Positions 3,172 to 9,665 of a stretch of 22,102 bases of DNA are shown piece after piece. A program made the translations under genes and the position numbers. This DNA is from a virus, in IMG/VR virus record IMGVR_UViG_3300007344_000290, positions 1-22,102 of that record. One strand, 5' to 3'. Position 1 is the stretch's first letter. The number at the start of each line of letters is the position of its first letter. Below the pieces are notes generated by a model. The model did not search any database, was not told the origin of the DNA, and saw only the letters and a program-made list of their open reading frames with translations.

Positions 3172-4458
3172 ATGCCAAAGATTGAGATCCCTTATAAATA
3201 CAGCCCCCGTGGCTACCAGATCCCGATCTTCGCTGCCTTGGATAACGACTACAGGCGCGCTTGCCTGGTGTGGCATCGCCGCGCTGGTAAAGACCTAACG
3301 CTGTGGAACCTAACGATCAAAAAAGCGCTTGAGCGCAAAGGGACGTACTTCTACAGCCTACCCACATATAACCAAGCAAAGAAGGTTATCTGGTCAGGCA
3401 TGAGCAACGAGGGTGTTCGGTTCCTCGACCACCTGCCGAAGGAGATCGTGCGCAGTCTGAACAACACTGAGATGCGCGTTACGCTAGGCAACGGCAGCAT
3501 CATTCAGCTGGTCGGCACCGACAACATCGACAGCATCGTTGGTACAAACCCGGTCGGCGTCGTGTTCTCAGAATACAGCCTCCAGAACCCTAAAGCCTGG
3601 GAGCTGATCAGACCGATCCTGGCGCTCAACGACGGCTGGGCAGTTTTCAACTACACCCCGCGTGGCCGCAACCACGGATGGCGGCTGTTCACGATGGCTG
3701 AGAAGAACCCCGATTGGTACGTTCAAAAGCTGTCGGTCGAGGACACTGGCCTCCTGGATGAAGACGCTATTCAGCGTGAACGCGACGAGGGTATGCCCGA
3801 GGAGCTGATTCAGTCTGAGTATTTTTGCAGTTGGGATGCTGCACTGCCTGGCGCGTACTACCGCGACCAGCTCGACAAAGCGCGTGCCATGAACCGCATC
3901 ACGACTGTCCCGCACCGCAGCGGTTTCCCGGTCTACACCGGTTGGGACATCGGTATCGGAGATTCAACGGCGATCGTGTTCTGCCAGGTCGTTGATCAAC
4001 AGATCAACGTCATCGATTTTGAGCAGCACGCCGGTGAGGCGTTGCCGTTCTATGTAAACCTGATCAAAGAGAAGGGTTACACCTACGGCGAACACTTTGC
4101 GCCACATGACATCGCAGCGCGTGACTTCACGAGCGGCAAGACCCGCATCGAGATGGCGCGCGACCTGGGGCTGTTCTTTTCGGTGGTAAGAAAAGCACCG
4201 GTTGATGACGGCATCAACTGCGTTCGAGCGATGTTTAACCGATTCGTCTTCGATGAAGACCAGTGCGGTCATTTAATCGATTGTCTTGCGGCCTACCGTA
4301 AGGATTTTGACGAGAAGAATCAGACCTGGCGTCCAAAGCCGGTTCACGATTGGTCATCTCACGCAGCCGACGCCATGCGTACTTTTTGCATGGGCTGGGA
4401 TGAGGTGGGAAGTATTCAACAGCACCGCCCAACACGGGTGGTTCGAGCGATAGGGTAA
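3172..4458 (+). CDS. terL: Terminase large subunit
   Basis: The DNA-packaging motor ATPase and nuclease, 428 residues, complete. ATPase motifs: a deviant Walker A, VWHRRAGKD (residues 33-41); Walker B GVVFSEYS (129-136) with catalytic Glu134; and coupling motif NYTPRG (160-165). Nuclease motifs of the RNase H-like fold: TGWDIGIGDS with Asp259 and Asp264, Asp313 in APHDIAARD, and Asp400 in HDWSSHAADAMR. It cleaves concatemeric DNA and pumps it into the prohead through the portal encoded two genes downstream. Ribosome-binding signal is weak (GAG at 3164-3166). The length is normal for short terminases of podovirus- and siphovirus-type phages. The next gene starts 4 bases later. Confidence 0.95.
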   Translation: MPKIEIPYKYSPRGYQIPIFAALDNDYRRACLVWHRRAGKDLTLWNLTIKKALERKGTYFYSLPTYNQAKKVIWSGMSNEGVRFLDHLPKEIVRSLNNTEMRVTLGNGSIIQLVGTDNIDSIVGTNPVGVVFSEYSLQNPKAWELIRPILALNDGWAVFNYTPRGRNHGWRLFTMAEKNPDWYVQKLSVEDTGLLDEDAIQRERDEGMPEELIQSEYFCSWDAALPGAYYRDQLDKARAMNRITTVPHRSGFPVYTGWDIGIGDSTAIVFCQVVDQQINVIDFEQHAGEALPFYVNLIKEKGYTYGEHFAPHDIAARDFTSGKTRIEMARDLGLFFSVVRKAPVDDGINCVRAMFNRFVFDEDQCGHLIDCLAAYRKDFDEKNQTWRPKPVHDWSSHAADAMRTFCMGWDEVGSIQQHRPTRVVRAIG

Positions 4459-8134: not shown

Positions 8135-8227
8135 CGCGTAAGCGTCCGAACCTTATGACTAGGTAGGTCATCGCCGACGGGCGTTAAACGCAGATGAGTC
8201 CGTAAGGGTAGCTCCTCGAAAAAAGAC
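8134..8227 (+). ncRNA. Candidate structured leader upstream of the capsid gene
   Basis: The RNA after the scaffold stop can form several compact hairpins: GCGC-GUAA-GCGU (8134-8145), AUGAC/GUCAU (8155-8171, 7-base loop), CGCC-GACG-GGCG (8172-8183) or the alternative GCGU-UAA-ACGC (8181-8191), and GAG-UCC-GUAA-GGG...CUC (8196-8214). The first and last hairpins have identical GUAA tetraloops. The whole block abuts an intrinsic terminator and then the capsid ribosome-binding site. I do not recognise an established RNA family. It may be a processing site or a transcription control element; the helices come from reading the sequence, not from computed folding. Confidence 0.4.
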
Positions 8228-8251
8228 GGCCGGCATTAGCCGGTTTTTTTT
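8228..8251 (+). terminator. Intrinsic terminator between scaffold and capsid
   Basis: A CCGGC stem (8230-8234) pairs with GCCGG (8239-8243) around an ATTA loop and is followed by eight T. The six A upstream (8219-8224) could pair with the T-run and make it work in both directions. Its place, just before the most highly expressed virion gene and with no convincing promoter between it and the capsid start, is unusual. Confidence 0.82.
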
Positions 8252-8261
8252 ATTGCTTTTT

Positions 8262-8275: not shown

Positions 8276-9380
8276 ATGGCCTATTCAGGCGGTAATTGGT
8301 ATGCACAACAGTATCAAGATGCTGTTATGCAACTTGCCCAGCAGCAGGGTAGTAAGCTGCGTCCGTTGGTCTTTTCTAAGACCGCAAACAGCGAGAAAGT
8401 AAACTTCGAGCGGCTTGGTGCAACGGCTGCCGTAGCAAAAACGACTCGCTACACCGCAACTCCAAACGTCGAGATGACTCACGATCGACGTGTTGCAACG
8501 CTGTCCGACTACCATTGGGCGACGATGCACGATTGGACGGACGACGTTCGCATGATCGTCGACCCGAAGGGTGCGTACACCAAATCCGGCGCGTGGGCGA
8601 TGGGTCGTGCAATCGACGATCTCATCATCTCTGCCGCTACTGGTAGCGCGACCGACGGTGCGGGTTCGAGCGTTGCGTTCACGGGCGCTCAGACTGTTGC
8701 GGAAGCTGGTACGACCGGAATGAACTTGGCGAAGATTCTCGAAGCCAAGAAAATTCTGGACGAGAATGAGGTCGAGAACGAAGATCGATACTTCGTGCTT
8801 GGCTCGCAGGCTCTGCAAGACCTGCTCAATGTGACTGAGATTAAGAGTGCCGATTACAACTCCGTTAGACATTAGCGGCATAAAGCAGAAATGCTTTATT
8901 GAAAACTCTGTGAATTGCTGGGAACTCTCTTAGAGACAATCAGCAGCGAAGCCCCGCAAGGGGAACGTCCAACGACCATCCCGAAAGGGAGTAGGCCCAA
9001 GTGGGCCGAAGCGCAGAGCGCCCGAAAGGGTGATGAGATGGTCTGCTCTTACAGGCGACTGTAAGCAGCCGAAAGGCGGCTTGAGGGTTAGCGTCCTCAA
9101 GTGAACAAAAGGTAAGGCACTGGTAGAAGGTCAGATTGACTCCTACCTTGGTTTCAAGTTCGTTCGCAGCGAGCGTCTGGCAAAAAACACCAACATCCGT
9201 GATTGCATCGCGTTCCAGAAATCTGGTCTCGGGCTTGCCATCGGCAAAGACATGGTGACTAAGATCGATGAGCGTCCTGACCTGTCATATGGATGGCAGG
9301 TGTACATGGCTTGGTCGATGGCGGCCACCCGTGTCGAAGATGCGAAAGTTGTGAAGGTGCAGGCTTACGAAGCTCCGTAA
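8276..9380 (+). CDS. Major capsid protein, interrupted by a group I intron
   Basis: Coding sequence is exon 1 (8276-8865) joined to exon 2 (9113-9380), giving 858 bases, 285 residues and a TAA stop at 9378-9380. Exon 1 contains the typical coat N-terminus and core of this podovirus group (MAYSGGNWYAQQYQ, then VEMTHDRRVATLSDYHWATM, GRAIDDLIISAATG). Exon 2 supplies the conserved C-terminal part (KALVEGQIDSYLGFKFVRSE ... KDMVTKIDERPDLSYGWQVY). Across the junction the protein reads ADYNSV-KALVEGQID, exactly as expected for the family. Without splicing, translation reads three codons into the intron and stops at 8873-8875, giving a 199-residue truncated coat that lacks the last 86 residues of the mature protein. 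Correct splicing is therefore required for virions. Scaffold lies upstream, and a terminator follows at 9407. Confidence 0.93.
8866..9112 (+). ncRNA. Group I self-splicing intron (td-like, group IA)
   Basis: This 247-base intron has no ORF. P1: exon CCGU (8862-8865) pairs with GCGG (8875-8878), giving the required U-G pair at the 5' splice site. P10: exon-2 UAA (9113-9115) pairs with UUA (8872-8874), just 5' of the P1 strand as expected. The last intron base is G (9112). P2: AUAAAGCA/UGCUUUAU with a GAAA loop (8880-8899). P4: UGCUG/CAGCA (8916-8920, 8941-8945) enclosing P5 and a GGGAACUCUCUUAGAGACAA segment closely like the T4 td intron. P6-type hairpin CCCC-GCAA-GGGG (8952-8963). P7: GACCAUC (8974-8980) with GAUGGUC (9037-9043), including the td-like core around AACGACCAUCC and GAGAUGGUCUGCUC. 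P9: CUUACAG-GCGA-CUGUAAG (9048-9065), followed by two more hairpins. P3 and P8 were not resolved by eye. Confidence 0.94.
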
Positions 9381-9406
9381 GGCTAATACCTTCTCTCCTG
9401 GGGATT

Positions 9407-9434
9407 GGCCGGCCTTCGGGCCGGCCTTTTCTTT
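9407..9434 (+). terminator. Strong intrinsic terminator after the capsid gene
   Basis: A perfect 8-base GC stem (GGCCGGCC on each side, 9407-9414 and 9419-9426) with a TTCG loop is followed by TTTTCTTT. It lies 26 bases after the capsid stop, comparable to the T7 late terminator that follows its coat gene, and would make capsid transcripts exceed those of the downstream tail genes. Confidence 0.93.
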
Positions 9435-9665
9435 ATGAATAGAAACTACAGAAAGGAATACGACGAGTACCACGCCACGCCAGAGCAAAAGAAACGACGA
9501 GCATCGCGAAACGCTGCGCGTCGAATGATGCAGGCAGCTGGCAAAGTGAGAAAGGGCGATGGGAAAGATGTTGATCACAAAGACCGTGATCCGCAAAACA
9601 ACTCGCGCAGCAATCTGCGCGTTACCTCAAAGAAACAAAATAGAGGATGGCGTAAAGGGGCTTAA
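9435..9665 (+). CDS. Small HNH-like protein
   Basis: This 76-residue basic protein begins at ATG 9435, directly after the T-run of the terminator, and has no visible Shine-Dalgarno sequence. Residues 41-48 (GDGKDVDH) and NNSRSNLRV (55-63), followed by Asn69, match the D-H...N-N-x-x-x-N-L-R core of HNH nucleases. The same compact protein occurs near capsid or tail genes in many podoviruses, where it is often annotated as an HNH endonuclease; whether the family cuts DNA is unproven. Its nearness to an ORF-less intron in the capsid gene invites a homing interpretation, but the wide presence of the family argues that it has its own role. Its stop overlaps the tail-tube gene start (TAATG). Confidence 0.72.
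   Translation: MNRNYRKEYDEYHATPEQKKRRASRNAARRMMQAAGKVRKGDGKDVDHKDRDPQNNSRSNLRVTSKKQNRGWRKGA

Follow-up and report, generated by a model that had tools for sequence, protein, structure and literature searches.

The major capsid gene in this window (the whole viral stretch of 22,102 bases that we analyzed) is interrupted by a 247-nt insert that, judging from its sequence, is almost certainly a self-splicing group I intron with IA2-like architecture, the splicing itself being deduced. Relatives of this intron recovered from viral metagenomes form a lineage without open reading frames (ORFs) whose members are concentrated in capsid genes. We base the identification on the score against the Rfam group I model, on intronless relatives that read through the junction, and on covariation. 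The window, the record of an uncultivated virus, has a podovirus gene order comprising terminase, head-tail adaptor, major capsid, and tail genes, and the interrupted gene has the following parts.

8276..8865, plus strand: major capsid gene, 5′ exon, covering codons 1-196 and two bases of codon 197 (the joined protein matches phrog_3437 over residues 8-281, E = 6.6e-76, identifying it as a major capsid protein; the 5′ part matches Phage_capsid_2, E = 4.6e-49)
8866..9112, plus strand: ORF-less group I intron, 247 nt (RF00028, 93.5 bits; empty site in relatives; covariation)
8873..8875, plus strand: in-frame TAG closing the unspliced capsid frame (sequence)
9112..9112, plus strand: omega-G, the last G of the intron (sequence; 14/14 introns with hand-anchored ends terminate in G)
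9113..9380, plus strand: major capsid gene, 3′ exon, ending in TAA (the joined 285 amino acids match intronless homologues over 1-284 with 70 to 82% identity)

The capsid ORF, which begins at 8276, is halted at 8875 by the in-frame TAG, and its frame picks up again after 9112. The Rfam covariance model RF00028 matches positions 8856-9065 with 93.5 bits (E = 3e-23), well above its curated gathering score of 50, which classifies the insert as a group I intron; no other Rfam family exceeds its threshold anywhere in the window. When joins with a U at the exon end and a G at the intron end were tested, a single one (8865|9113) restored SADYNSV-KALVEGQID exactly as found in intronless relatives, giving a spliced product of 285 amino acids. 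These relatives (among loci L002 to L016, 70 to 83% identical at the protein level) carry the same or similar residues across the junction, and the closest full-length intronless capsids are 82% identical. The initial annotation, made from the letters alone, had placed the intron at 8866-9112 with the junction SV-KALVEGQID, and both the covariance model and the capsid alignment bear it out to the base. Its proposed splice ends also hold, U8865 pairing with a G within the CCGU/GCGG helix of P1 and the intron closing on its terminal G, as does its P10, in which UAA (9113-9115) pairs with UUA (8872-8874); the U-G pair, the terminal G, and the P1/P10 guide expected of group I introns are thus all present. 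The insert has no ORF and hence no homing endonuclease of its own. In one locus within the same capsid family (L010:3792-4050), which a tblastn search had at first led us to take as intronless, we found a different group I intron (83.9 bits) near the 3′ end of the gene, whose removal joins MAW-AMQATR.

The structure was read from the window intron and tested on an alignment of 18 homologous introns, with the following helices.

8862..8878, plus strand: P1, 8862-8868 CCGUUAG with 8872-8878 UUAGCGG; U8865-G8875 at the 5′ splice site, internal guide sequence GCGG at 8875-8878 (Rfam match, structure read from the window)
8872..8874, plus strand: P10 strand UUA, partner of the 3′ exon UAA (sequence pairing)
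8880..8899, plus strand: P2 with a GAAA loop (both-side changes in 8/8 pairs)
8906..9018, plus strand: P3, 8906-8912 with 9012-9018 (97.6% of cells paired; both-side changes in 5/7 pairs)
8916..8945, plus strand: P4 (8916-8921/8940-8945) and P5 (8926-8929/8933-8936) (covariation alignment)
8946..8968, plus strand: P6 (8946-8948/8966-8968) and P6a (8952-8955/8960-8963) (covariation alignment)
8974..9043, plus strand: P7, 8974-8979 GACCAU with 9038-9043 AUGGUC, forming a pseudoknot with P3; expected guanosine-binding helix (97.2% of cells paired; both-side changes in two pairs)
8980..9007, plus strand: P7.1 (8980-8982/8987-8989) and P7.2 (8994-8998/9003-9007), IA-type peripheral helices (covariation alignment)
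9019..9032, plus strand: P8 (98.9% of cells paired)
9048..9101, plus strand: P9 (9048-9054/9059-9065), P9.1 (9068-9070/9075-9077), and P9.2 (9080-9086/9095-9101) (P9, 100% of cells paired and both-side changes in 5/7 pairs; P9.2, 73.5%)

Across the 18 introns, 90.1% of the alignment cells of the 75 base pairs are paired, and 55 of these pairs show changes on both sides. None of 500 shuffles reached the observed values, and sliding the partner strands lowered pairing to 34 to 45%, a comparison in which deriving the structure from one alignment row favors the real version over the slid ones but not over the shuffles. The predicted fold of the window intron likewise beats 200/200 dinucleotide shuffles (z = −4.2). 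Covariation confirms the P3-P8 core helix by helix, including the P3/P7 pseudoknot, with compensatory changes in P2, P3, P5, P7.1, P7.2, P8, and P9 and also in P7, most of whose pairs are fixed. P1 is variable because each guide tracks its own exon, and the weaker support for P9.2 is partly due to the alignment. P7.1 and P7.2 lie between P7 and the 3′ strand of P3 and both covary, which makes the intron IA2-like (td-type) on the basis of its helices rather than a subgroup model. The group IA2 introns of T4 td, nrdB, and nrdD have the same P7.1/P7.2 and P9.1/P9.2 architecture, but they carry or carried endonuclease genes and reside in nucleotide-metabolism genes. The label “td-like” given in the initial annotation is therefore apt in the architectural sense (P7.1/P7.2 and P9/P9.1/P9.2); no T4 record occurs among the best 60 of the 122 phage matches.

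An insert of this kind could also be a degenerate intron that leaves the capsid gene broken and unspliced. We regard this as highly improbable, given that all core helices are intact and covarying, that both exons are open and conserved, that the window showed no further capsid gene, and that the intron is letter-for-letter identical in the four contigs of the species (the window and loci L017, L018, and L019, which are 98.5 to 99.6% identical at the DNA level). Between L019 and the window, there are 0 differences in the 247 intron positions, compared with 15/590 in exon 1 and 44/3000 in the upstream DNA; because the probability of finding no difference at the surrounding rate is ∼0.017, the intron is, by this comparison, conserved at least as well as its surroundings. 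What speaks for degeneration is a core-deleted form at the same capsid site in another locus. This insert (L021:3240-3393) keeps P1 to P6 and the 5′ strand of P7 without P3′, P8, and P7′, scores 44.6 bits (under the Rfam threshold), and has its break point at similar CCGAA hairpin loops. It represents either a natural deletion or an assembly error, and some copies of the intron may be dead.

Splicing of the window intron would start with its folding within the capsid pre-mRNA and the docking of exon 1 (CCGU) on the internal guide GCGG. A free guanosine would then serve for the cut after U8865, P10 would align exon 2, and ligation of the exons would yield an uninterrupted mRNA for the 285-amino-acid capsid protein. 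If the intron splices in this way, every virion needs the action of a ribozyme on the most demanded mRNA of the phage.

Two probes, neither of them built on capsid sequence, were used to collect relatives of the intron from IMG/VR: first a 17-mer taken from the P3-P4 core, later a P6-P7 pattern. We took the open frame 3′ of each intron as the host gene and made these frames nonredundant at 90% identity. Capsid Pfam families were matched by 30/41 nonredundant 3′ exons with one probe (the window’s own phage being counted once among the 41) and by 34/78 with the other, these counts being sums over the capsid families on the assumption that no member matches two. The full-length filter of the second probe relied on a profile made mostly from capsid introns, and this set may be biased as a result. 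PHROG agrees with Pfam, the families hit (3437, 1328, 283, 267, 9953, and 14242) all being annotated as “major head protein.” The introns of the lineage measure 233 to 273 nt, lack ORFs, and occupy several unrelated capsid families. A further 15-mer probe (GATGAGATGGTCTGC) gave 76 matches, nearly all due to chance, with one new intron (L198); bacterial genomes scanned with the 17-mer gave 42 matches, none of them an intron, and thus no clue to a host.

The concentration in capsid genes could be an artifact of choosing IMG/VR contigs by their hallmark genes, with an intron pool that would be inherited rather than capsid directed. Viral contig databases do favor structural genes, and homologous sites are common to related phages, so that the counts are not fully independent. 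However, a generic group I probe (the P7 motif) applied to the same collection matched capsid families in only 7/76 cases, with hosts that include tape measure, ribonucleotide reductase, terminase, and endolysin genes, and the lineage involves distinct sites as well as unrelated capsid families, making this explanation unlikely in our assessment. Fisher tests against this control gave values of 2e-12 and 9e-7, which are too optimistic since the sequences share ancestry. Several of the control loci (L225, L227, L290, and L272, among others) hold full-length, ORF-less relatives of ∼250 nt, and a number of these introns interrupt tape-measure genes. Partial relatives from isolated phages sit in genes for DNA polymerase, terminase, RNA polymerase, and a tail protein, with no annotated capsid gene among the matches listed. 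Given these non-capsid locations in isolates, the capsid bias is, as far as the sequences indicate, a property of a sub-lineage in uncultivated phages.

Single capsid genes can hold several of these introns. One gene (L107:3990-5729, minus strand) has four group I introns separated by short exons, three of which score above the Rfam threshold; L105, L408, L458, and L470 have three each, close together, and L085, L093, and L097 have two each (the host was established as a capsid gene for L085, L093, L097, L105, and L107). The capsid family of the window is occupied at at least five sites: A (window and L116), B (eight bases downstream), C, D, and E. In an intron tree built on about 240 nt, introns from different capsid families pair with high support: L116 (PHROG 3437) with L085 intron 1 (PHROG 1328) (support, 99), L148 (1328) with L094 (3437) (98), and L097 (14242) with L146 (1328) (96). 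Two introns of the L107 gene also pair together (98), and the nearest relative of the window intron (L111) lies in a gene with tail-fiber matches. The flanks of sister-intron pairs agree at the ∼27% background level, except for the last few bases: the window and L111 share CCGU and the guide GCGG, and L116 and L085 intron 2 share ACCGT. For several introns, the automated calls of splice sites failed or were misplaced, and the flank comparison is accordingly limited to sequence-checked sites. Such a pattern is what guide-directed insertion predicts and not what homing at a long conserved target predicts.

Collaborative homing would rely on a free-standing endonuclease, such as the HNH product encoded at 9435-9662, to cut capsid genes that lack the intron. 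The process is known for ORF-less introns in phages (PMC3984707), and a small HNH_3 gene directly 3′ of the capsid gene, together with the presence of two unrelated introns (window and L116) at one site, would fit it. Yet the HNH gene also lies 3′ of the capsid gene in the intronless L006 to L009, L020, and L025, and sister introns occur at different sites without common flanks, and we consider this route somewhat unlikely. A first motif search had suggested that the HNH gene is exclusive to intron carriers, which tblastn matches in intronless relatives ruled out. The gene encodes 76 amino acids, and in isolates it is often found near scaffold genes.

Guide-directed ectopic insertion, perhaps by reverse splicing, is the best, if unproven, account of the spread. 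Reverse splicing is a known candidate process for such insertion, and the capsid mRNA would be a plausible, abundant target for it. In this scenario, the intron would insert at new short sites matching its guide, with reverse splicing into plentiful late mRNA as the most plausible route, and would then be copied to DNA and recombined, a sequence of events to which we assign a little less than an even chance. In L099 and L144, whose phages are 85 to 86% identical, the introns are 96% identical and occupy two sites of the same gene separated by 49 nt, with their differences concentrated in the guide region. Since the two carry different guides, a simple reverse-splicing event that preserves the guide does not explain this pair unless the guide changed later or a third source was involved; alternatively, endonuclease-led transfer with relaxed specificity may account for the movement. 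The wider proposal that an ORF-less lineage has specialized on phage capsid genes, spreading between and within them by guide-directed reverse splicing into capsid mRNA, is one that we advance tentatively and hold to be doubtful. The lineage pattern does suggest repeated re-entry into the same kind of gene without an enzyme gene of its own. If the reverse-splicing reading is true, introns transpose at the RNA level in phages, and it could well be tested on near-identical introns that occupy separate sites of one capsid gene.

The initial annotation considered an intron in a coat gene to be less usual, and this rarity is weaker than claimed, as capsid introns are already documented in LittleE, Tuc2009, and crAss-like phages. 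In mycobacteriophage LittleE, splicing of a major capsid intron was proven by RT-PCR and protein sequence (PMC3706429), and that paper cites a capsid intron in phage Tuc2009. Like the window intron, that of LittleE has a U at the exon end and a G at the intron end, but the insertion is 819 bp long and has a LAGLIDADG-like frame on its bottom strand, it resides in a temperate siphovirus, and its group I nature is only “most likely” (PMC3706429). Closer in form is the spliced tail-gene intron of BAKA and Optimus (265 bp, no endonuclease gene), which also sits in a structural gene, though in a tail rather than a capsid gene (PMC3706429; compared by description). Capsid genes of crAss-like phages hold several introns, with one gene in five fragments, and those of the Delta and Zeta groups resemble our lineage in having several group I introns per capsid gene; they were spotted through encoded endonuclease domains, however, whereas the window intron is ORF-less and its lineage measures about 245 nt, and they occur in larger phages in which many core genes carry introns (PMC7886860). 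For nuclear rDNA group I introns, spread by reverse splicing has been proposed (PMC1299323, cited in PMC3984707); they share with our lineage heterologous sites with matches of guide length only and a location in highly expressed RNAs, but these are eukaryotic rRNAs and not phage mRNAs. A search of the open-access literature, with subscription papers mostly outside its reach, returned no report of a capsid-concentrated lineage of ORF-less introns. Capsid introns are thus not new; the concentration of the lineage in capsid genes and its jumping between sites seem to be. In viral metagenomes, capsid genes split by introns will be misannotated as truncated.

A promoter scan around the capsid gene found none. 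Weak matches to SorX/SorY at 9361-9434 were below threshold and reflect a terminator hairpin. In L006, an odd match to the tmRNA model (53.9 bits over only 76 nt) lies between the capsid and HNH genes (3906-3981). Between the preceding gene and the capsid start, the window holds a conserved structured RNA (8135-8255), followed by a terminator-like hairpin (8228-8245); it had no Rfam match at an E value of ≤1 in the window and four relatives. In 12 relatives, this RNA has four predicted helices, with both-side changes in 10/21 pairs.
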